This document shows positions 4,223-62,966 of a stretch of DNA of 62,966 bases, piece by piece. The stretch is from a virus, in IMG/VR virus record IMGVR_UViG_3300033143_001983, positions 1 through 62,966 of that record; one strand, 5' to 3'. The position numbers and the translations under genes were made by a program. The notes beneath the pieces were generated by a model. It was not told the origin of the DNA. It did not search any database and was given only the letters and a program-made list of their open reading frames with translations. Position 1 is the first letter of the stretch; each line of letters starts with the position of its first letter.

Positions 4223-5736
4223 TGACAAAAGAATATGGAGAACCACCTAAAAGCTCTAAGCGTAAAAAGAATATGTCTAGAGAAGCAGCTATCGAAGCTC
4301 TCTGGAGACAGGGAAAACTCGTATGGAAGCTTAAAGGTAAACAGATTGATATTTACGATCACTTCACTGATGATGAAGATGATATAAGTGCCTGTCTAAT
4401 TTCTAGAAGATTTGGTAAATCATTTACATTATGCTTAATCGCCATAGAAAAGTGCTTACAAAATCCTTTCGGAGTTGTTAAGTATGCTTGTCCAAAACAA
4501 AAGCAAGTTGAATCCACTATTAGACCAATTATATTAAAAATAATAAATGATTGCCCAGATGATATAAAGCCAGAATGGAAAACTCAAAGTAAATCGTGGG
4601 TATTTCCTAACGGAGCTGAGATACAAATTGCCGGAACTGATGGTGGGAATTATGACACACTAAGAGGTGGAGCGTCTATCTTATGTATCGCAGATGAAGC
4701 AGCTTTTATGGATGAGTTAGAGACTGTTATTTATTCAGTACTAGCTCCTACCACAGATACAACAGATGGTAAGATACTACTAGCCACTACGCCAAATGAT
4801 AAGGATGCTAACCATGAATTTCATGAGCACTTCTTGCGACCATTTGAAGCAGCAGGTAAGCTCTTAAAGTTCACATATAAAGACTCTCCTATGGTAGACG
4901 AAGCCAAGATGTCAAGAATAATTAAAAGATATCCGGGTGGAGTTAACAATATAAAATTCAGATGTGAGTACCTTTGTGAGATTCCAAACGTAACAGAATC
5001 TAATGTTATTCCAGAATTTGCTCCAATTAAGGATAAGATCGTCAAAGAAGTAGAAACTCCAGATCATTGCGATTTCTACACTTCAATGGATTTAGGTTTC
5101 AAAGATTTAACTGTGGCACTTTTCGGCTACTACGATTTCAGAAACGCTAGGCTAGTAATATTAGATGAATATATAATTAACGGTCCAGATCTGAAAACAG
5201 ACATACTAGATAAAAACATAAGACACAAAGAGGATCTTAGATTTAAAACTACATTAGGATCTCAACCAGCACATTTGAGAGTAATGGATAATAACAACTT
5301 AATGCTTGTAAATGAGCTTACTAAGTCATATGACCTAACTTTTATCCCAACAGCCAAGCATAATAAAGAACAGGCTATAGATACCGTAAGAAGATGGGTT
5401 GAGCAGGAGAAGATAATAATTCACCCAAGATGTGTTAATTTAATATACCACACACAATATGCTCAGTGGCAATTTACCAGATCTGGAACGTCTACAGGGA
5501 AATTCAAGCACTTAAAAGGTAATGATACTGCCGGACTTTTAACGTCACATGCCGATGCTTTGGATGCTTTGATATATATGGTGAGGAATATCCATACATA
5601 CAGAAATCCTTATCCTGAATTTCACGGCATGGATGTAGGTCCAGAAACTCATATAACCAAACATTACCGGGATAATAAAGCGTCCCAAACTATTGATTTA
5701 ATGAGAAAAATCATGAATTTAAAAAAGAAAGCTTGA
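4222..5736 (+). CDS. terL: Terminase large subunit
   Basis: This is the ATP-driven DNA-packaging motor and headful nuclease that docks on the portal. The N-terminal ATPase has a Walker A variant SRRFGKSF (residues about 60-67), Walker B ILCIADEAA (about 152-160) and coupling motif ATTPN. The C-terminal RNase H-like nuclease has SMDLGFKD (about 288), an acidic residue in LDEYI, and HADALDA (about 443). The length of 504 residues is normal. The start is an ATG in TAATG overlap with the HNH gene. It lies just upstream of the portal, as expected. Confidence 0.95.
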   Translation: MTKEYGEPPKSSKRKKNMSREAAIEALWRQGKLVWKLKGKQIDIYDHFTDDEDDISACLISRRFGKSFTLCLIAIEKCLQNPFGVVKYACPKQKQVESTIRPIILKIINDCPDDIKPEWKTQSKSWVFPNGAEIQIAGTDGGNYDTLRGGASILCIADEAAFMDELETVIYSVLAPTTDTTDGKILLATTPNDKDANHEFHEHFLRPFEAAGKLLKFTYKDSPMVDEAKMSRIIKRYPGGVNNIKFRCEYLCEIPNVTESNVIPEFAPIKDKIVKEVETPDHCDFYTSMDLGFKDLTVALFGYYDFRNARLVILDEYIINGPDLKTDILDKNIRHKEDLRFKTTLGSQPAHLRVMDNNNLMLVNELTKSYDLTFIPTAKHNKEQAIDTVRRWVEQEKIIIHPRCVNLIYHTQYAQWQFTRSGTSTGKFKHLKGNDTAGLLTSHADALDALIYMVRNIHTYRNPYPEFHGMDVGPETHITKHYRDNKASQTIDLMRKIMNLKKKA

Positions 5737-5750
5737 CTTTTAATACATAA

Positions 5751-5769
5751 TTTAACAACTATATTATAG
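5751..5769 (+). promoter_or_regulatory. Late promoter element 2
   Basis: TTTAACAACTATATTATAG, a full match to the repeated late element, lies 20 bases before the portal start with a short leader containing AAGGA. A TTGACT at 5733 lies too far from the TATA for normal sigma70 spacing. Confidence 0.7.
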
Positions 5770-5788
5770 TTAATACATAAGGAAAAAC

Positions 5789-7888
5789 ATGAGCAGAAAC
5801 GTATACTTCGCAGCAGATAAACCTGACGTAACAGTAAGATTCTTAGACGAAAAGGCTAAGGATTGGTTCACTGGAATCAGTGACTCTAGTTACCTTAGTA
5901 AGATAGAAAGATCTTGGAGAGCCTACTACGGTGAGTATTATGGCGATTCTGGGAATTCTCATGGCATTAGTTATGGAGGAGAAAGCGGAGAAATAGTTAA
6001 TTTAGCCGTAAATCACTACCGAAACTTAGCCAGACATATACACGTAATGGTTACTGGTACTAGACCAGCTTTCCAATGTCGTGCAATTAACACCGATAGG
6101 AAATCTCTTATACAGGCAAAGCTAGGAAACGGTCTACTCGACTATTATATGCGAGAAATGAGACTCGAAGAAATCCTAAAGCAAGCCGTAGAGTATGCTA
6201 TTATATTAGGATCAGGTTATGTAAAATTAGAATGGAACAGTACAAAAGGTAAAGTCTACGACTTCGTAGAGCCTGATCCAAGTTCCATAATTGATGAAGA
6301 TGAAGACGGAAACCCTCTTGACGAAAAAGGAAATATCCTAGAAGCATTACCTCTTTTTGAAGGTGATATGGAATATTCACTAGTTTCTCCATATGATATT
6401 ATATTCGACTCAACTAAAGAATACTTCGACAAAAATGAATGGGTTGTTTGTAGAAGTAAGATCTGTAAATATAGTCTAGCTGCTAAATACCCGGAATATG
6501 CTGATGAAATTATAGAATTAGATACGGTAGATAAAGAACAAAAATCTAAAAGAGATAGCTCATATTCAAAAACACATCAAACAGACGATGTTTTCGTTAA
6601 GGAACTTTTTCATAAAAGAACTCCAGCAATGCCTAACGGAAAATATATGTTATATGTAAATGAAGATATTATACTAGAAGATACGATGCTTCCTTATAGA
6701 GATCTTCCAATTTATAGAATCACACCTTCAAGCATTATCGGAACTCCTTACGGATATACAGATATGTTTGACTTACTTCCGCTACAAGAAATGCTAAACA
6801 GCATGTACTCAACTGCCGCAACTAATATTAGCGCATTTGGTGTTCAATCAATACTTTCTCCTAGAGGAGCTGGAATTGAGCAAGAACAAGTTGGTAATGG
6901 GATGCAATTTCTACATTATAATCATGATGCTGGTAAACCAGAACCTCTTCAATTGACCGCAACTTCTCCAGAAGTATATCAGATGATGGGACTATTAGAA
7001 AAGACGATGGAAACATTATCAGGAGTTAACTCAGTTGCCCGTGGTAATCCTGAGCAATCCCTTAGATCTGGAAACGCACTTGCACTAGTACAATCTCAGG
7101 CACTTCAGTTTGTGTCTGGACTTCAGCAATCATATGTTAGATTACTTGAAGATGTAGGAACTGGAACAATAAATATCTTAAAGGATTTTGCAAGTTCGCC
7201 AAGAATGATTGCAATTGCAGGAGTAAATAATACTTCAGAAATGACAACATTTAAAGCAGACGATATTAAATCTATTAATAGAGTAATTGTTGATTCAGGA
7301 AATGCACTTATGAACTCTACAGCAGGTAGAGCGCAAGTGGCAGAAAACTTGCTTCAAATGGGGTTAATTGATAATATCGACAAATACCTAATGGTACTTA
7401 ACACTGGAAATCTAGATTATTTAACTGACGGAAAAATTGATAACTTAACATTAATTAAATCTGAAAATGAGGCGATGGTAAAAGGCGAAATTCAACAAGC
7501 AATTTGGTCTGAGCGTCACTCAATGCACATAAAAGAGCACATGGAAGTTTTAAACGATACGGAGCTTAAGAAAGATTCTCAATTAGTACAACTAGTCCTA
7601 GACCACGTACAAGAACATGCTAACTTGCTTCGTACAATTGATCCTGCACTACTTGCAATGGTAGGAGAGCAACCAATTGCTCCAGCACCAAACCCAGCTA
7701 ATATGGGACAACAAGGACAACCAGCCGGACCTCAACCAACAGGACAACCAATTCCTATGGATCAAGGTAATGCGCAGACAATGGCTCCACAAGATAGTAC
7801 TGCTCAAGGTATGCCTAATTTACCAACTCCTGCCGGAGTAAATGAAGGAATACTTCCTGAGATGCCGCAAAAACCGAGTGACTTATAA
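5789..7888 (+). CDS. Portal (head-tail connector) protein
   Basis: This 699-residue protein has the layout of large podoviral portals. An N-terminal segment beginning WFTGISDSSYLSKIERSW is followed by a mixed core with YRITPSSIIGTPYGYTDM and NALALVQSQALQFVSGLQQS (wing and stem-helix type sequence). The last about 60 residues are rich in P, Q, A and N. It forms the dodecameric ring at the packaging vertex. It follows TerL and precedes the scaffold, the canonical order. The final bases overlap the next start (TAATG). Confidence 0.88.
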   Translation: MSRNVYFAADKPDVTVRFLDEKAKDWFTGISDSSYLSKIERSWRAYYGEYYGDSGNSHGISYGGESGEIVNLAVNHYRNLARHIHVMVTGTRPAFQCRAINTDRKSLIQAKLGNGLLDYYMREMRLEEILKQAVEYAIILGSGYVKLEWNSTKGKVYDFVEPDPSSIIDEDEDGNPLDEKGNILEALPLFEGDMEYSLVSPYDIIFDSTKEYFDKNEWVVCRSKICKYSLAAKYPEYADEIIELDTVDKEQKSKRDSSYSKTHQTDDVFVKELFHKRTPAMPNGKYMLYVNEDIILEDTMLPYRDLPIYRITPSSIIGTPYGYTDMFDLLPLQEMLNSMYSTAATNISAFGVQSILSPRGAGIEQEQVGNGMQFLHYNHDAGKPEPLQLTATSPEVYQMMGLLEKTMETLSGVNSVARGNPEQSLRSGNALALVQSQALQFVSGLQQSYVRLLEDVGTGTINILKDFASSPRMIAIAGVNNTSEMTTFKADDIKSINRVIVDSGNALMNSTAGRAQVAENLLQMGLIDNIDKYLMVLNTGNLDYLTDGKIDNLTLIKSENEAMVKGEIQQAIWSERHSMHIKEHMEVLNDTELKKDSQLVQLVLDHVQEHANLLRTIDPALLAMVGEQPIAPAPNPANMGQQGQPAGPQPTGQPIPMDQGNAQTMAPQDSTAQGMPNLPTPAGVNEGILPEMPQKPSDL

Positions 7889-53540: not shown

Positions 53541-54397
53541 TATAATTCCTCCCTAGCTTCATAACCTTCTTCAACAATCTTATTCACCATGTAAGATACT
53601 TTTGAAGTTACATCGTATGGATATAAATTATAAAACACTTCTTTAATTCTGTCAATATCTAAATTCATCAAACCGCAGGTAAATAAGAAGCTGTTTCCTC
53701 TAGCGTACATTTCTCCTGCAAGTCCGTCATGAGCGTTCTCTAAGAAGTAGGCAATTGTGTCAGGAATCTTAGCCTTTTGTTCGCCATATAAAGCCTCTAC
53801 AAGCTCTTCAATTGAATCTCCTACCACTACGTTATCTTTATGCTCAAAACGCTTTATTTCGCCCTTTTTAGGCTTCTCAGCAGGTGTTGGCTCTAGTAGA
53901 TCCGCATCATACCAGAATCCGTCAACGACTCGTCCACCAAAGAAGAAACGTGCAGTATCTCCAATGCATGATGGGTCAGCAGGAAAGTGTTCGGCTAGTT
54001 TCAGCATTGTTGCTTCAAAGTCTGGTTTATTCGTAATTGATTTAGCTAGTGGGAATATTAGTCGGAACTTATGATGCTCCTCGCTATGAGAAGTGCTCGG
54101 CAAACATAGTGTTGCAATATCTAATTGATGCACTACTTTTTCTGCTTCATCAATAGTCATACCGTCATCAATATCAAGTACCATGAAATCAGTTGCTAAG
54201 AAGTTGTGCTGGTTTCGATAAGCACTAAATATGCTCGGACTCCATGCATTGCTACATATAGTCTCGATAAGCTGCTCACTTGTCGCCACTTCTATTACTT
54301 CTGGATAATGTGGCTTAGACGTATACCATGCTTCTTTGGATTTCTCTTCCTTAGACTCTGGTAGTGCCTTAGCTTTGGAAAATATACTCAATTTCAT
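53540..54397 (-). CDS. Archaeo-eukaryotic-type (AEP) primase
   Basis: The 285-residue protein shows the AEP catalytic layout: DFMVLDIDDGM (D75 and D77, metal ligands), CLPSTSHSEEHHKFRLIF (S103-x-H104 type motif), and DPSCIGDTARFFFGG (third acidic residue). A helical C-terminal domain follows. It would lay down primers for the family A polymerase and is encoded in the same operon as the helicase. The start overlaps a small membrane gene (ATGA-type). Confidence 0.75.
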   Translation of the reverse strand: MKLSIFSKAKALPESKEEKSKEAWYTSKPHYPEVIEVATSEQLIETICSNAWSPSIFSAYRNQHNFLATDFMVLDIDDGMTIDEAEKVVHQLDIATLCLPSTSHSEEHHKFRLIFPLAKSITNKPDFEATMLKLAEHFPADPSCIGDTARFFFGGRVVDGFWYDADLLEPTPAEKPKKGEIKRFEHKDNVVVGDSIEELVEALYGEQKAKIPDTIAYFLENAHDGLAGEMYARGNSFLFTCGLMNLDIDRIKEVFYNLYPYDVTSKVSYMVNKIVEEGYEAREEL

Positions 54398-54540
54398 TTT
54401 CTGTCCATTATACTTGCTATAAATACTAATGTGATAACTAGTAACGGTATAGCGATTGCTTGATATATATCATTTATACCTAGTTCTAATAATGCTAATG
54501 TTGATATGATCCAAAATCCTATCAATATAGACGGTATCAT
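54394..54540 (-). CDS. Tiny two-TM protein, 48 aa
   Basis: Begins MIPSILIGFWIISTLALLEL and has a second hydrophobic segment (IAIPLLVITLVFIASI), with short polar loops and ends. It overlaps neighbours at both ends (ATGA). Likely a phage inner-membrane peptide; function unknown. Confidence 0.5.
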   Translation of the reverse strand: MIPSILIGFWIISTLALLELGINDIYQAIAIPLLVITLVFIASIMDRK

Positions 54541-54662
54541 TTTCCTTTCACAGTTACAAAGTATTTAACATTATCAAGATCTACTTTATCACCTTTTTCA
54601 TAATACTTAGGCTCTTTCTCTAGTGATGATTGATACCATCCTGCTACTGGTATTGTATACAT
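54537..54662 (-). CDS. Hypothetical protein, 41 aa
   Basis: TAAGGAG lies 7 bases before the ATG and supports translation. The product contains KYYEKGDKVDLDNVKYFVT, a small beta/turn-rich fragment similar in feel to a KOW or SH3-like miniature. No family is recognised. Confidence 0.45.
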   Translation of the reverse strand: MYTIPVAGWYQSSLEKEPKYYEKGDKVDLDNVKYFVTVKGK

Positions 54663-54671
54663 ATTAGCTCC

Positions 54672-54812
54672 TTATAATAATTTTCCAATTGTGATTAATG
54701 CCGCCCATAATAAATAGCTGAATCCATTAGTCTCAGGAAACTCATGAGGCGATGTTACTAATTCCAGTATAGCACAAAATATACATATTGCAATGAGTAT
54801 CCAGCCAATCAC
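54672..54812 (-). CDS. Small membrane protein, 46 aa (GTG start)
   Basis: The GTG overlaps the stop of the RNA ligase gene (GTGA). The N-terminal helix is very hydrophobic (VIGWILIAICIFCAILELV). A short polar loop and a second weak helix (YLLWAALITIGKLL) follow. Membrane-associated, function unknown. Confidence 0.45.
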   Translation of the reverse strand: MIGWILIAICIFCAILELVTSPHEFPETNGFSYLLWAALITIGKLL

Positions 54813-55903
54813 AGTTGATTTCCAGTAGGTCGTATTGTCTTCATTATATATTTATCCAATCCTATTCTTCCGCTTTTCTTTAGAAAATTGAAATGCACAG
54901 ATCCATGAACGCTTTTTCCTTCCTTTATATACAGTCCTAGTTTCTTTAAATTCTCTGGAGTAGGTCCATCTTCTAATCTTAATTCAACTCCTATACAAGA
55001 GTACTCATAATATAAAGCTTGATCTAATTCTCCATAACTAGCCTCTATTTGATCCACCAATGCATCAGCTTCTTCTCGAAACTCTTCTGGCAAGTGCTCC
55101 AAGTAGTCTACTTTTACCACACCATTTTCCATTGCTTTCCATAAACTAAGAGGTGTCAAGTGATTCACAATTCTAGCAACTCTTAAATACTCGGCAGATT
55201 TGAACTTCACTCTGTATCCATTTTCTAGTCGTACTACGTAACCTTCTTCTGTATGGTCAAGCGTTTCTAGGTGATTTTGAAGCTCTACAATTGAGTCGAA
55301 TGTAGTAGCAGGAGTTACTATTAGATTGGTTTTTAAAGAGTGTATTTTTATATTTTCATTAAGATCAGTTTCATATTCATTATTATATATCCCTAAAAGA
55401 GATAGAAATTCCTCCTGACCGTAGTTAACTATTATTTTATTTTCAGGATATACTATCTCAACCAAATAGGTATTTTCTTTGTTCATGTTTTTAGTTTTAT
55501 ATCTACTATCTAACATCTCCTTGCCTTTAATAGCCTGATCACTTGTAAAGCTACCTCTAGTATTTACTCGCCACTCTCCATCGTAGAAGTACACAATGCC
55601 TAAAGATCCGTCCATCTTCTCAAATGACTCAAAATATCTAGCATTTATTATGTCAGCTTTCTTATCATCGTTAAGTTCTCCAAAATTAAAGAACTTAGGA
55701 AAAGCTCTTGCTACTACCTTTCCAGTTGCTATTTCGTAGACGGTTCCTCTAGCGTTCAGAGTTACGTCATCCCATGCTTTCTCGTAGGTACAGTGGTCAG
55801 TGTAGTTCCACAGTACTAAGCGTCCACAAGGCGATATAACCTGTCTCAGGAGGCGGTCATCTACATACTGTCCAAACTTCTTAAGTGAGTGATGTATTTT
55901 CAT
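54809..55903 (-). CDS. ATP-dependent RNA ligase, T4 Rnl1-like
   Basis: A nucleotidyltransferase-type ligase of 364 residues with motif I EKMDG (Lys97, adenylated), motif Ia TRGS (115-118), motif III YLVEIVYPEN with Glu149, motif IV EEGYVV (about 219-224) and motif V RVKFKS (about 231-236). It seals 5'-phosphate/3'-OH RNA ends, typically nicked tRNA anticodon loops. It lies downstream of the RlaP gene with 23-base overlap and AGGAG, in the same operon as HD-Pnk. Confidence 0.9.
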   Translation of the reverse strand: MKIHHSLKKFGQYVDDRLLRQVISPCGRLVLWNYTDHCTYEKAWDDVTLNARGTVYEIATGKVVARAFPKFFNFGELNDDKKADIINARYFESFEKMDGSLGIVYFYDGEWRVNTRGSFTSDQAIKGKEMLDSRYKTKNMNKENTYLVEIVYPENKIIVNYGQEEFLSLLGIYNNEYETDLNENIKIHSLKTNLIVTPATTFDSIVELQNHLETLDHTEEGYVVRLENGYRVKFKSAEYLRVARIVNHLTPLSLWKAMENGVVKVDYLEHLPEEFREEADALVDQIEASYGELDQALYYEYSCIGVELRLEDGPTPENLKKLGLYIKEGKSVHGSVHFNFLKKSGRIGLDKYIMKTIRPTGNQL

Positions 55904-56876
55904 TTATAACTCTCCTGTGAAACTTAATTAAAATACTGTTTAAAAACTCTCGATCTACTTCTTCTGGAAGTTCGCTATCTAATCTAGCATCTTCTAATCC
56001 TTCTAATAAATCTTCAAGTAGTTGCTGAACTTCTGGATAATCTATGCTTCCAGATTTAATGTCCTTAACTATATTAGCATCTACTGGAACTAAAGGCAAG
56101 GTGATTTCACCAGTACTTAATAATTCTAATCCCTGCATAGAAACTCTTGCTGCATGACTCAATGCTTTCCAATCAATTCCATTGTTCTTCTTAGCTTCTC
56201 TAGCTCTTTGTCCGTAGTTCTTGTAGATCCTAGTCATAATTTGAAGCACGTAGTCGAATCTACAGTGATGGTCAAATCTCTTTCCTAGTATATCAAGTGC
56301 TGGAACTTCTGGCAAATCAGGAGCTGTGGCGGATAAAGTGATCTGATGCACATGCTCAAAGTTCTTAAGTTCATCTAATAGAAAATCCCAAGCATGTTTA
56401 AGCTTTGGTCCATCTCCAGCTAGTTTCTCACCTTCTCGTAATATTTTGATGACGTTATTTAATTCGCCCATCCTTGAGCCTTTGATGCCATATTTGTTCG
56501 CCTGTTGTCGTGCATACCCAATCATTGCGCTAACTTTAGAACTTAGAAGCTGATCTCTCACTTCTAGGATTTCATCCCACATAGGATCTTTCTCAATAAT
56601 CATATCGTCAGGAGTAAATAGAAGCTCTAGTGCTGCTGTGTCGCCTCTGCTTACCATCTTGAGGAACTTCTTGAGGCTGTACAGCTCAATGTCGATATCA
56701 TCTTTAGAGTTCTTAGAAGAATCGTCGCCAGTTGAAGTACTTACCGATTCTTTGTAGTTTCCTATTAGAATTTCTTCAGCAGTAGGAAGAAACACTCCTT
56801 TGTAATCTTTGTCGCTTGCAGGGGTTGAGGTTCCAAATAAGTGAGAACCTGCCATTGCTTTAATTAGAATTTTCAT
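55881..56876 (-). CDS. RlaP-type nucleotidyltransferase of the RNA repair pathway
   Basis: The N-terminus has the pol-beta superfamily signature GSHLFGTSTPASDKDYKGVF: G10-S11, then SDKD at 21-24 with catalytic Asp22 and Asp24. A third acidic site lies in DIDIELYSL (about 60-66). The rest is a large helical domain as in PF10127 (RlaP), which clusters with RNA ligases and Pnk in many bacteria. It may add nucleotides to damaged RNA 3' ends. The start has AAAGGA and follows the tRNA-like gene by 18 bases. Confidence 0.85.
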   Translation of the reverse strand: MKILIKAMAGSHLFGTSTPASDKDYKGVFLPTAEEILIGNYKESVSTSTGDDSSKNSKDDIDIELYSLKKFLKMVSRGDTAALELLFTPDDMIIEKDPMWDEILEVRDQLLSSKVSAMIGYARQQANKYGIKGSRMGELNNVIKILREGEKLAGDGPKLKHAWDFLLDELKNFEHVHQITLSATAPDLPEVPALDILGKRFDHHCRFDYVLQIMTRIYKNYGQRAREAKKNNGIDWKALSHAARVSMQGLELLSTGEITLPLVPVDANIVKDIKSGSIDYPEVQQLLEDLLEGLEDARLDSELPEEVDREFLNSILIKFHRRVINENTSLT

Positions 56877-56893
56877 AATTTCCTTTGAAAAAG

Positions 56894-57040
56894 TAGGGAT
56901 AGGCGGAATCGAACCAACCGACTTCTCTCCTCTGAGAGCACTCTAGACAATTAATTACTTTGTCGTCCATGTATTTATTTGGTAGAGGTAATGTACAATC
57001 TCTCATCTCCTAAATACTGACCCATCTGAGCTATATCCCC
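56894..57040 (-). tRNA. tRNA-like gene with a 73-nt insertion and defective anticodon arm
   Basis: The ends pair as an acceptor stem (GGGGATA with TATCCCT, discriminator A). The D side GCTC pairs with GAGT, and the T arm is GG-TTGG / CCGCC with loop TTCGATT and one extra U. Between GGGTC and TAGAGTG of the D loop 73 nt are inserted. The anticodon hairpin CTCTC/GAGAG closes only a 4-base AGAG loop instead of 7, so no normal anticodon is readable. It is a tRNA relic, decoy or processed precursor. The amino acid cannot be assigned. Confidence 0.45.
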
Positions 57041-57042
57041 AT

Positions 57043-57066
57043 AAAAAACGCTCGTCTTTCCGAGCT
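57043..57066 (-). terminator. Intrinsic terminator between HD-Pnk and the tRNA-like gene
   Basis: On the minus strand the stem GCTCG / CGAGC has a 6-base loop (GAAAGA) and is followed by G and six T residues. It ends two bases before the tRNA-like gene, so tRNA-like, RlaP and ligase expression depends on read-through or antitermination. Confidence 0.85.
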
Positions 57067-57139
57067 GTCCGTATAAGCATCCTATACCTTTCAGAGACAT
57101 AAGCCAGCCTGCTGACTAAGCAGGTACTTCAGGAGTCTC
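57067..57139 (-). ncRNA. Structured leader before the terminator (attenuator-like)
   Basis: Two well-formed hairpins, CCTGC ttagtca GCAGG and GTATA ggatgct TATAC, lie in the gap after HD-Pnk. The outer stem GAGAC / GTCTC encloses the first. Both loops are 7 nt. With the terminator this makes a possible attenuator or riboswitch controlling downstream RNA-repair genes. No known family is recognised. Confidence 0.4.
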
Positions 57140-57168
57140 GTCTAACTTTCTATCTATTTCGTACTCGT

Positions 57169-58236
57169 CTAGATAACATATTCTATTTCATCAAACTCTT
57201 CATAAGTTGGTGGGTAAAAGCTTCGCATCATGCGTTCTATTATAGCCACATCTATTACTTTACCAGTTCTCTTAGAATTACGCAACATTATTTCTTGCAT
57301 ATCTGGTAAAAAAACTACGCATTTCTTTTTATACTCTGGACCAAAATGTGATAGCGACCTTCTACGAGACTTCTTGCTCATGTGAGTCATATCTACTATT
57401 ACATTGTCCTGTTTTCTTGCATAAGCAAATTTCTGTACCATCCATCTATCTATTAACTTCTGATTAGCCTGTTTCCATGCAGTATTATAATCTAAGTCTG
57501 GAAAGTGCTCGGCAAAGTAATGATCCCTAGAAACTATCATTGAAGTAGCTCCAGTATCTCTATTGTAAGCATTGTTGTGAGTCCATCTACTCTTCCCAGA
57601 TCCCGGCAATCCGCATAATACGATCACTTCTTTTGTCTCACCTCTATCCTTGGCAAATTCAAACTCATGAAGCACTTCATTAAATGTCGGAATTACAGCG
57701 TTCCCTTCTGTGTGAAACCTTCCAGCATGATCCGCATTTCCTAACATAATTAATTTTTCTACAAGAGGAAGATCTCCAATAGCTGCTAGTTTACTAGCCC
57801 CAAGCTTATATACTTGAGTATGAAGCGCAATCATATTAAAGATTCTAGCTTGTTGCTGCTTATCAAGTCCTAGCTCTTCTCGCTTCAATATCTCCAGTGC
57901 CATAAATGCTGATACTGCATCATGATTGTAGAAGCTCACATTTCCATTCTTAGCGTTCACTTTTCTAGTGCTAGGCTTACCTATGTCGTGCAGTAGTGCT
58001 GCAATCTGGACCTCATATGGAGCGTTCTCAGCTTGCTTACATACCATCATCGTATGTGTCCAGACATCACCTTCTAAATGATATGGGTTTAAGTTAACGG
58101 GATCTTCATCAACTCCGAAAGACTCAGCATTATCAAACTCGTCCTCATATAAAAGATGGTGGTTAGCCCTTTTCATATCCGCAACATTATCTGGATACTC
58201 CATTTGAAACCACGATATAAGCTCATGCATTTTCAT
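57169..58236 (-). CDS. HD-Pnk: HD phosphoesterase fused to polynucleotide 5'-kinase
   Basis: The N-terminal HD domain has H53 and H61 in HLEGDVWTHTMM, LLHDIGK (H83, D84), NHD (105-106) and NADH (D169). The C-terminal P-loop kinase has GLPGSGKS (209-216), SRD (236-238) and VDMTHMSKKSRRR (281-293). This is the HD-Pnk architecture. The HD part removes 2',3'-cyclic or 2'-phosphate ends and the kinase adds 5'-phosphate, preparing RNA breaks for ligation. The start overlaps the helicase stop. It is probably part of the RNA repair operon. Confidence 0.9.
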   Translation of the reverse strand: MKMHELISWFQMEYPDNVADMKRANHHLLYEDEFDNAESFGVDEDPVNLNPYHLEGDVWTHTMMVCKQAENAPYEVQIAALLHDIGKPSTRKVNAKNGNVSFYNHDAVSAFMALEILKREELGLDKQQQARIFNMIALHTQVYKLGASKLAAIGDLPLVEKLIMLGNADHAGRFHTEGNAVIPTFNEVLHEFEFAKDRGETKEVIVLCGLPGSGKSRWTHNNAYNRDTGATSMIVSRDHYFAEHFPDLDYNTAWKQANQKLIDRWMVQKFAYARKQDNVIVDMTHMSKKSRRRSLSHFGPEYKKKCVVFLPDMQEIMLRNSKRTGKVIDVAIIERMMRSFYPPTYEEFDEIEYVI

Positions 58237-59942: not shown

Positions 59943-60094
59943 CCTATCTCCACTTCATGTACGTCAAGTACTTCATCTCTGTCATATTTATAACTTCCTT
60001 TATATTCATTTACTTCTTTCATTGTTAGAAAGACCTTCTTATAAACATCTACACAATCCCAAGGATTCCACGACACAATTAAGTAACCTATCAC
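59939..60094 (-). CDS. Hypothetical protein, 51 aa (GTG start)
   Basis: The GTG overlaps the stop of the macro-domain gene (GTGA) and the stop overlaps the next ATG. It includes SWNPWDCVDVYKKVFLT and an acidic end. It is accepted because it exactly fills the gap between two overlapping genes. Family is unknown. Confidence 0.5.
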   Translation of the reverse strand: MIGYLIVSWNPWDCVDVYKKVFLTMKEVNEYKGSYKYDRDEVLDVHEVEIG

Positions 60095-60561
60095 TTATCC
60101 TCCAAGTAATAAACAAACACATCTAGATCATCTCCAGTTGCATCGTCAATAATTTGCTTAACAATATCCCAATTGCCGCCAGCTAGTCCACATCCTATTT
60201 TAGGAATTGCGATTGCATGAGTAGAAGTTCCTTTTAAGCGAGCAGTTAGTCCTATGAAGCATTTATAGACCGCTTCATAATCCACATGCTTTTTACCGTC
60301 ATATCCATATGAATCTTGAGTAAAACAATTAAATACAGTCTTTTCTCCAAGAGCTGTACAAATATAACCTAACAGTCCAGCAGTATCTCCTTCAATAGTC
60401 ATATCATCGCAAAACATATGATATTGTGTTTTAACACTAGGATACTCCTCAAACAACACCCTCGCTACTCCGCTTCCCATTACGTTCTGGCAGTTAACTC
60501 CATGAGCAATGTATTTTTGCGGTGCATCTAGTATTGAACCTTTTATGTATTGTTTAATCAT
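60091..60561 (-). CDS. Macro-domain protein (ADP-ribose binding/hydrolase)
   Basis: A 156-residue single macro domain: AHGVNCQNVMGSGVAR supplies the substrate loop (Asn, GSGVA), and the C-terminal IPKIGCGLAGGNWDIV the second loop. This is close to the Poa1p/ADP-ribose-1''-phosphatase type. It could clean ADP-ribose species or reverse ADP-ribosylation, and would act on the product of NAD+ cleavage or of 2'-phosphotransfer. It is adjacent to the NAMPT-family gene, overlapping by 8 bases. Confidence 0.88.
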   Translation of the reverse strand: MIKQYIKGSILDAPQKYIAHGVNCQNVMGSGVARVLFEEYPSVKTQYHMFCDDMTIEGDTAGLLGYICTALGEKTVFNCFTQDSYGYDGKKHVDYEAVYKCFIGLTARLKGTSTHAIAIPKIGCGLAGGNWDIVKQIIDDATGDDLDVFVYYLEDK

Positions 60562-62047
60562 TGTTTAATCTACCTCTAATTTCTGCTAAAGAAGTTTCTC
60601 TTAAAAGCTTGCCGTCTTTGAAAAGCGGAAGAAGAAGATCATCTGTTTTATTTGCCGGAGCCTCTCTACATTCTTCATCTAAAAAAAACATAGCTCCATT
60701 ATCATTATTTTTATGTACGGAAATCCTACCCTTAGCACTTTTCTTAGTACCATCATCTGTGACAGGATCTTTAAATATTGCTTTCTCAACTCCATTTATC
60801 GTAACACTTGTTGCCTTCATAGCAAAGCCTAGTGAGTCTCTAGTTTGGTACTGGTAAGTATATGATCCAATTCCGTACACAACATTAGTTGAAGCAAATC
60901 CCTTAGCTTTCAATCTAGCGCATATATCCTTGCATCGGTCAATAGTGATAGCATCACCGTAAATAGCTCCTACGGCTGGGTTTAAGACCTTGAAGCCTTG
61001 TTCGTTAACTGTGCCACCAAAAGTATCCCAAAGAAGCTCTACAACCCCTTTCTGTGCTCGTGAGTCTCTACTGGTTTCGTTCCCACATAATATATCTGCC
61101 GGATCTCCGGAGTCTGGACGAATTACTACTTTATCTAAACTCTCAGGTCCACCATCACGCTTAAGTATTGAAGCTTTAAGGGATGGTATAATTGTATCAA
61201 GGGTGTTCCATAAATCCCAAGTATCTGATACGATTGAAACGATCCCTGTAGGGTACGTGTCTTCGATAAGTCTTCTGTAAGTTTCTCTTTCATCTTCTTT
61301 TCCTCCTGCGCACATTACAGAATGTTCAGTGGCATTTACGCTACATCCTACTAGTTCTTCCTCAACATTTGCATTGTAATATTGTTCCGCATATAAGATT
61401 GCCGGAATCGTATCAGTTCCTACTGAGCTTAGTAAATGTCCTACACCAGTTCTTGCTGCATCTTCTGTGCCGCTCATACCACGCATACTGAAGTCGTGAA
61501 GTTGAAACTCAACTCCGTCAGTTGTACCAGTAGTTTCTAGTGCCGCCTCATCTAAGACTTGACGGTAAACTCTAGTAGTACTTGCAGCAGTACATGGCTT
61601 CCATAAATTAGCTGATGCCATAGTCTCGATATAGTTAGTGAGCCAGAAGAATCTATCGTCAGTATTTTCAATTGTGAGCATTGGAACTCTGAATGGTACT
61701 AATGTACCTTCTTCTAGTGCTTTAATTTCTAGTGGTAAATATCCTAAGTCGTGAAGCTCTTCTAAATGTTTCGTATCAGGACTAGGAACTCCTAAGCAGA
61801 ACTTAACTATGCGGCTATATTCAGCAATGATCTCGTTCTTATCTTTGTCGAAGAAGTTTTCTTGGAAGGTTTCTTGAAGTTCTTTTACGAATCCTTGGAA
61901 ACCGAAGGCTACTACTTCTTTAATATTTGGTGCATGTTTGCCAGATCTAGGAGTCCAAGTCGAATAGACCTTCTCGGTTCCTGCTGGATATTGCTCTCTG
62001 TGTGATAATTTGTAAAAGTCTGCCATTAGTGTTGGGTTTAGTTTCAT
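60554..62047 (-). CDS. NAMPT-family transferase (NadV-like; Namat-like in context)
   Basis: This 497-residue enzyme has all NAMPT hallmarks: MADFYKLSHREQYP at the N-terminus, the catalytic His in NATEHSVM, VSIVSDTWDLWNT, RPDSGDP, GDAITIDRC and GIGSYTYQYQTRDSLGFAMKAT. NAMPT makes NMN from nicotinamide and PRPP. In the phage NARP1 pathway the homologous Namat uses ADP-ribose pyrophosphate and makes NAD+ directly. The Prs-family gene two positions upstream favours the latter, but sequence alone does not separate them. AGGAG precedes the start. Confidence 0.9.
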   Translation of the reverse strand: MKLNPTLMADFYKLSHREQYPAGTEKVYSTWTPRSGKHAPNIKEVVAFGFQGFVKELQETFQENFFDKDKNEIIAEYSRIVKFCLGVPSPDTKHLEELHDLGYLPLEIKALEEGTLVPFRVPMLTIENTDDRFFWLTNYIETMASANLWKPCTAASTTRVYRQVLDEAALETTGTTDGVEFQLHDFSMRGMSGTEDAARTGVGHLLSSVGTDTIPAILYAEQYYNANVEEELVGCSVNATEHSVMCAGGKEDERETYRRLIEDTYPTGIVSIVSDTWDLWNTLDTIIPSLKASILKRDGGPESLDKVVIRPDSGDPADILCGNETSRDSRAQKGVVELLWDTFGGTVNEQGFKVLNPAVGAIYGDAITIDRCKDICARLKAKGFASTNVVYGIGSYTYQYQTRDSLGFAMKATSVTINGVEKAIFKDPVTDDGTKKSAKGRISVHKNNDNGAMFFLDEECREAPANKTDDLLLPLFKDGKLLRETSLAEIRGRLNND

Positions 62048-62262: not shown

Positions 62263-62477
62263 TACATATTCTCCGCTTCTGATTCAATCATACCTTCTGG
62301 TGGAGTGGGAACTTCTTCTGCTGTTAAATATACTCCAAATCCTATACATCCTACGATTACAGTACTAATACCAATAGTACCTAATACAAGTTTGATACCG
62401 CCCAAATGTAATCCTAAAAAGAACACTCCTATAAAAGGAAGCGATATTAAAAAATAACCTATCATTTTTCTACTCAT
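62262..62477 (-). CDS. Two-TM membrane protein, 71 aa
   Basis: Hydrophobic helices cover about residues 7-27 (GYFLISLPFIGVFFLGLHLG) and 29-52 (IKLVLGTIGISTVIVGCIGF). The C-terminus is acidic (PTPPEGMIESEAENM). It lies inside the NAD module and could anchor or influence the neighbouring enzymes, or be unrelated. No family is recognised. Confidence 0.55.
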   Translation of the reverse strand: MSRKMIGYFLISLPFIGVFFLGLHLGGIKLVLGTIGISTVIVGCIGFGVYLTAEEVPTPPEGMIESEAENM

Positions 62478-62966
62478 CTAATACCTCACCTTTTCTATTA
62501 AATATGCGGCTAATTCCAGAATCTCTCAACGTCTGAATACCTTTCGAGTATATTCCGTGAGTCGTATATAGATTAACAGACTTTGCTCCACATCGCAATA
62601 GCTTTTCAGCAGTTAATTTAAAAGTCATTCCACCGTCACAAATATCGTCCCATATTAAAACGTCTTCACCTTCTATGTTAATTCCAAGCTCATTTAGAAA
62701 CATGTTCGTAATATAACCTGTTTTTTGATCACGGTTTTTTGACATAGAACAGTAAGGTATTCTTAAATGATCTACCTTTGTAGTAAAAAAAGGATTACTA
62801 GAGTACCTATCCTCTGCTCCTTTATCTGGGAAGCATATCAAAGAAGGATTCGTAGCATCTATAGCATCATGTACAGCACTAAAAGGAAAAACAGAATCTA
62901 CCAGACCTTTACTATATATGTCGCTATGTTCGTCATATGTTCCTATACTTTTAATTCCCGGCAAAG
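62470..62966 (-). CDS. Prs-family (ribose-phosphate pyrophosphokinase-like) enzyme, N-terminus outside the window
   Basis: The visible 164-165 residues correspond to the C-terminal half of Prs: YDEHSD (PRPP-synthetase-type DxHS motif), CFPDKGAEDR, RDQKTGYI and the PRPP-binding loop DVLIWDDICDGGMT, ending with THGIYSKGIQ. The first about 120-130 residues of the family, with the ATP flag region, are missing, so the TTG at the edge is not the real start. It is a ribose 5-phosphate or, in NARP1 (Adps), ADP-ribose pyrophosphokinase. Confidence 0.85.
   Translation of the reverse strand, partial: LPGIKSIGTYDEHSDIYSKGLVDSVFPFSAVHDAIDATNPSLICFPDKGAEDRYSSNPFFTTKVDHLRIPYCSMSKNRDQKTGYITNMFLNELGINIEGEDVLIWDDICDGGMTFKLTAEKLLRCGAKSVNLYTTHGIYSKGIQTLRDSGISRIFNRKGEVLDE

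Follow-up and report, generated by a model that had tools for sequence, protein, structure and literature searches.

A predicted RNA repair trio and a tRNA-derived element at the DnaB-primase junction of a phage genome

The virus record IMGVR_UViG_3300033143_001983, analysed at its full length of 62,966 bp and called the window below, is a single virus record with terminase, portal and maturation protease genes. Its minus strand carries, in the replication region, genes for an HD-Pnk (57169-58236), an RlaP (55881-56876) and an Rnl1-type ATP-dependent RNA ligase (54809-55903), with a 147-nt tRNA-derived element (56894-57040) between the first two. We regard it as probable, at roughly 0.7, that this trio works as an operon, exchanged between phages, for the repair of tRNAs that anticodon nucleases of the host have cleaved, and that the element beside it is a non-conserved, non-decoding derivative of a tRNA.

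Composition, recurrence and exchange of the trio

HD-Pnk matches the Pfam domains HD (2.9e-8) and AAA_33 kinase (5.9e-17). It has the arrangement that defines its family, an HD domain with the HD doublet followed by a P-loop kinase domain, and H61, H83-D84, D169, GLPGSGKS at 209-216, D238 and R291-R292 are kept in four phage homologues. The N-terminal HD phosphohydrolase domain is predicted to heal 2',3' ends and the C-terminal P-loop polynucleotide kinase domain to phosphorylate 5'-OH ends. Phage RM378 provides a known case of HD-type PNKP activity (PMC1997131). The enzymes of RM378 and Runella slithyformis share the order of HD phosphohydrolase, then polynucleotide kinase domain, whereas the window protein is just 29% identical to the RM378 homologue and sits in a trio with RlaP. 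A search of bacterial genomes with HD-Pnk returned weak or partial homologues only, two of the best being in Sulfurovum metagenome-assembled genomes.

The second protein, RlaP, is a Pol-beta-type nucleotidyltransferase by its matches to PF10127 (6.6e-18; 65.7 bits, cut-off 23) and phrog_388 (1.9e-87). The nucleotidyltransferase motif GS...SDxD is intact, and G10, S11, D22 and D24 are invariant. Homologues are found in 1,517 phage records, T4-like phages among them, where the gene is annotated nrdC.11/nucleotidyltransferase and the copies are about 37% identical to the window protein. A sequence search of the PDB gave no match for RlaP; the best PDB neighbours of its predicted model (pLDDT 78, medium confidence) are nucleotidyltransferases, at a weak level of similarity (E = 0.008, TM about 0.3). 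In the systems described by Burroughs and Aravind, the Pfam RlaP likewise adjoins an RNA ligase and is predicted to restore nucleotides lost at RNA breaks (PMC7824862); the window differs in its compact HD-Pnk-RlaP-Rnl1 order.

The ligase matches PF09511 (1.3e-22), phrog_562 (9.4e-53) and T4 Rnl1 in the PDB (2c5u, 1.2e-7). Its motifs KMDGS and KFKS are intact and the lysines K96, K233 and K235 are invariant in homologues. The PF09511 match and the KxDG/KxK motifs place it in the Rnl1 family, with a score under the strict TIGR02308 equivalog cut-off.

The genes are closely packed. The start of HD-Pnk shares one base with the stop of a DnaB-like helicase gene of the replication region (59246-58236), and a 23-nt stretch is common to RlaP and Rnl1, an operon-like layout. 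A probable ribosome-binding site for RlaP, AAAGGA, lies at 56881-56886. Between Rnl1 and a primase-like gene (54397-53540) are three small open reading frames (ORFs; 54394-54812), which probably travel with the insertion. All the parts that a preliminary description of this DNA had listed as a four-part cassette were thus recovered on the minus strand where it had placed them, the count being three proteins and one RNA.

The trio or close variants of it recur in several phage lineages. Locus L190 matches the window in gene order (HD-Pnk, RlaP, Rnl1) and also has overlapping genes, at identities of 42, 62 and 44%; a query for the DnaB and primase genes gave no hit near the trio on that contig. 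Elsewhere the order or the partners change: T4-type Pnk, RlaP and Rnl1 in L187; Rnl2, HD-Pnk and Rnl1 in L180-182; HD-Pnk, Rnl1 and RlaP in L410-412 and L427/428/434/441; and Pnk, Rnl1 and RlaP in L463. An apparent RlaP gene start between HD-Pnk and Rnl1 in L186 is followed by inserted sequence that by eye looks like an HNH-type ORF (start and insertion together at 5250-5955, plus strand), which suggests that the trio there was disrupted by an insertion. Over 80 RlaP loci, some of them near-duplicates, a Pnk, HD-Pnk or Rnl1 gene lies within 5 kb in 20. Searches for close relatives with RlaP and Rnl1 alone found nothing. Healing and sealing genes are linked in independent phages, and the idea in the preliminary description of a linked RNA repair set is well supported; the finding that would have spoken against it, genes without linkage in relatives, was not made, because the trio or its variants recur in several lineages.

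The position of the trio is informative as well. The closest relatives, L128 and L129 (polymerase 70% and DnaB 72% identical), have a DnaB-primase gap of about 35 nt without the cassette, which leaves no room for the three small ORFs either. At the same site L179 (DnaB 71%, primase 57%) has an HD-Pnk (61%), an RlaP that has diverged (29%) and a head protein of the CCA/poly(A)-polymerase type; Rnl1 was not found there in the stretch examined. Because the site is empty in L128 and L129 and holds a different set in L179, the cassette is best described as a swapped-in module, and the DnaB-primase junction, by its gene contents, is a place of exchange for genes of RNA end processing. In L179 the head-domain protein (L179:2029-2712(+), 227 aa, poly(A)-polymerase/CCA-type) stands beside RlaP and HD-Pnk. 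Among cultured phages, the nearest relative of the window by DNA polymerase is Flavobacterium phage immuto, at 45%.

Repair of cut tRNAs as the proposed role

Anticodon nucleases leave a 2',3'-cyclic phosphate and a 5'-OH, and phage T4 heals these ends with Pnk and seals them with Rnl1 (PMC2610378). The nuclease RloC also takes out the wobble nucleotide, and its discoverers suggested that the lesion may defy repair by Pnk and Rnl1 (PMC2610378). Given this loss and the prediction that RlaP restores nucleotides missing at RNA breaks (PMC7824862), the operon can be read as heal, refill, seal. The HD domain of HD-Pnk would remove the 2',3'-phosphate and its kinase domain would phosphorylate the 5'-OH, RlaP would add back the nucleotides lost at the break, and Rnl1 would join the ends. 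A tRNA would be the substrate, and the set would serve in counter-defence against anticodon nucleases, by analogy with T4. The likeness to the T4 repair of PrrC damage by Pnk (PseT) and Rnl1 (RnlA) lies in end healing and Rnl1-type sealing, and T4-like phages also encode an RlaP homologue. The difference is that the window heals with an HD-Pnk and T4 with a T4-type kinase-phosphatase. In addition, the three genes are dispersed in T4, whereas they are contiguous in the window.

Several facts weigh against this proposal. HD-Pnk enzymes may also work on DNA ends, and genes of the Rnl1 family can do other jobs, as T4 Rnl1 does in promoting tail-fibre attachment. In 60 of the 80 RlaP loci no healing or sealing partner lies within 5 kb. 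The enzymes might instead do another job, either general RNA or DNA end repair or, for Rnl1, the attachment of tail fibres. The possible action of HD-Pnk on DNA and the annotation of phrog_562 as 'RNA ligase and tail fiber protein attachment catalyst' speak for such a role; the clustering of the ligase with a kinase-phosphatase and RlaP in the replication region, and not among structural genes, argues against it, and we hold it to be quite improbable.

The neighbourhood fits a counter-defence role. Within 5 kb upstream of HD-Pnk are an NAMPT-type gene (60554-62047, minus strand; phrog_448, 6.7e-199), the contig-end fragment of a PRPP-synthetase-type gene (62470-62964, minus strand; phrog_619, 1.9e-32) and, next to this pair, a macro-domain gene (60091-60561). 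The NAMPT and PRPP-synthetase-type genes resemble the phage pair for NAD+ reconstitution (PMC12774641), a NARP-like NAD-salvage pair; they and the macro-domain gene are all of counter-defence types.

The tRNA-derived element

The element starts GGGGATATAGCTCAGATGGG and finishes GGTTCGATTCCGCCTATCCCTA. Its ends form an acceptor stem of 7 bp with all seven pairs (57040-57034/56901-56895), followed by the 5' strand of a D-stem (57031-57028), a 74-nt insert after the D loop (57017-56944), GAGT (56943-56940), an arm CTCTC-AGAG-GAGAG with a 4-nt loop and no anticodon (56938-56925), a T arm with one bulge (56919-56902) and A73 (56894). Besides the acceptor stem, the features of a tRNA include TA, GCTC, a D loop containing GG and the canonical T loop TTCGATT. 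Such a tRNA consensus box pair occurs once in the window and in none of 150 third-order shuffles of the window. Judged by its sequence, the element is a real tRNA sequence, beyond chance.

It is, on the other hand, a non-decoding derivative and not a working tRNA. A functional tRNA has a 7-nt anticodon loop with U33 and a closed D stem, and neither is present. In the predicted ensemble the pairing probabilities are 0.96 for the acceptor, 0.98 for the CTCTC arm, 0.99 for the insert hairpin GTATTTA/TAAATAC and 0.75 for the T arm, with 0.008 for the canonical D stem; the stability of the overall fold is not beyond that of shuffles (z = -0.19). ARAGORN made no tRNA call at default thresholds, even with introns allowed. 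Rfam returned no family for the element or the leader at gathering score, and no match to a tRNA model with the E-value limit relaxed to 5. Compared as DNA with known phages, 57170-56885 gave chance-level matches only.

The element begins 4 nt after a 124-nt spacer (57045-57168), and 7 nt separate its 3' end from the ribosome-binding site of RlaP. The spacer contains hairpins, the last of which is terminator-like (stem 57065-57050, then T6). The terminator of the preliminary description holds in so far as this hairpin is well shaped, whereas the number of such hairpins is within chance (1 found, 2.5 expected). For the leader, which had also been called structured, the fold with the element is no more stable than that of shuffles (z = -0.99).

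No tRNA-like element adjoins RlaP in any other trio locus found, so that the element is not a conserved partner of the trio. The suggestion that the tRNA-like RNA is a substrate, decoy or guide is accordingly unsupported, and the RNA has the structure of a tRNA derivative that does not decode. Two assignments to known RNA types were rejected. As a class II tRNA with CTCTC-AGAG-GAGAG as the variable arm, the element would have its sole candidate anticodon arm, itself with a 9-nt loop or a mismatch, 7 nt away. A bacterial Y RNA shares with it the setting of a tRNA-like RNA encoded next to RNA-processing genes, as for YrlA with Ro60; the ends of the window element make an acceptor stem and not a Ro-binding stem, no Rfam match was obtained, and no TROVE domain was found among the window proteins scanned, which did not include every ORF.

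A pattern search for tRNA boxes spaced too far apart led to insert-bearing tRNAs in other phages. In many phage tRNA genes the 5' strand of the anticodon stem is interrupted by an insert of around 50 nt (range about 46-57 nt) (L014:4110-4237(-), L029, L051, L019, L009, L024, L048, L073, L093, L100, L112, L118 and others). At most junctions, 2 or 3 nucleotides of that strand precede the insert. Among 42 such tRNAs whose D arm is intact, taking out the insert leaves a fully paired 5-bp stem, and a loop that has U33 and a purine at position 37, in 20, against 0.08 expected from shuffled inserts. Two motifs recur, 'CG^TA..CCTGTCC..CCCGCAAGGG..GGGTTACTT^' and 'AATG-hairpin-TAACAGCAA'. The inserts may form a class of small tRNA introns that has yet to be described; the literature searched held no description of anticodon-arm inserts. 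A link to the window cassette is unsupported, since the phages with such inserts show no enrichment of RNA ligases (10/25 vs 8/25). A second phage tRNA with a D-loop insert, at L201:8449-8598(+), has about 77 extra nucleotides there; an Rnl1 gene is 1.4 kb away, and the anticodon loop of this tRNA, GGCACAA, is without U33. One example and little similarity between the inserts give too little ground for a family uniting the two. In relatives of the window phage, the polymerase gene is followed immediately downstream by an odd tRNA-like gene of 105 nt whose anticodon/variable region is expanded (L130:7032-7136(+), identical in L131).

The element is thus lineage-specific, and it is most likely a decayed tRNA gene, although an operator or decoy role is possible. 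The most economical explanation, to which we give somewhat less than even odds, is a hitch-hiker that came with the cassette and has no present function: it is seen in the window genome only, tRNA genes lie near RlaP in some phages, and the 4-nt anticodon loop, the bulged T stem, the insert and the shuffle-like stability all look like decay. The intact acceptor stem and T loop argue the other way, as does the otherwise tight packing of the surrounding genes. On a rival reading, the element is a tRNA-mimic operator in the RlaP-Rnl1 mRNA leader, bound by RlaP or Rnl1 so that translation is repressed until cut tRNAs titrate the enzymes. Autoregulation by tRNA mimicry is known for E. coli thrS, and the element lies directly upstream of the RlaP start and downstream of the terminator-like hairpin, having retained its acceptor, T arm and 5-bp arm without an anticodon. 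However, such regulation would be private to the window phage and the ribosome-binding site falls outside the fold, so that we think an operator rather unlikely.

A decoy that occupies host anticodon nucleases, or a substrate that is itself cut and rejoined, would suit tRNA-like ends and body adjoining repair enzymes; yet the element offers anticodon nucleases no normal anticodon loop to cleave, and with its absence from the other trio loci found this leaves the idea less probable than an operator. Splicing by the HD-Pnk and Rnl1 encoded next to it, which would make the element a tRNA with an intron, is very improbable. Other phage tRNAs do have excisable inserts, but the motifs of the window insert differ from theirs, and the ligase counts given above offer no help. 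Moreover, no single excision yields a canonical tRNA (best score 6.25, against a shuffle median of 6.5 and 12.25 for the positive control).

Implications for phage RNA repair

The protein families and the general idea of repair are already known, with T4 as the model. As far as the literature surveyed goes, which did not include the original description of RlaP, what is new is a compact trio exchanged at a fixed site, together with a private tRNA mimic. RlaP is very common in phages and its role is only predicted; the three-gene unit makes the predicted refilling testable. This bears on the removal of a nucleotide by RloC, the step thought to make the damage hard for phage repair to reverse. 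A further scenario, slightly less probable than an operator as such, is that the repair enzymes, by binding this tRNA without an anticodon, shut down their own production until host tRNAs cut by nucleases draw them off, which would make a self-tuned operon that senses damage. Regulation of the operon by the mimic, if real, would give phages a novel means of detecting damage to tRNAs.

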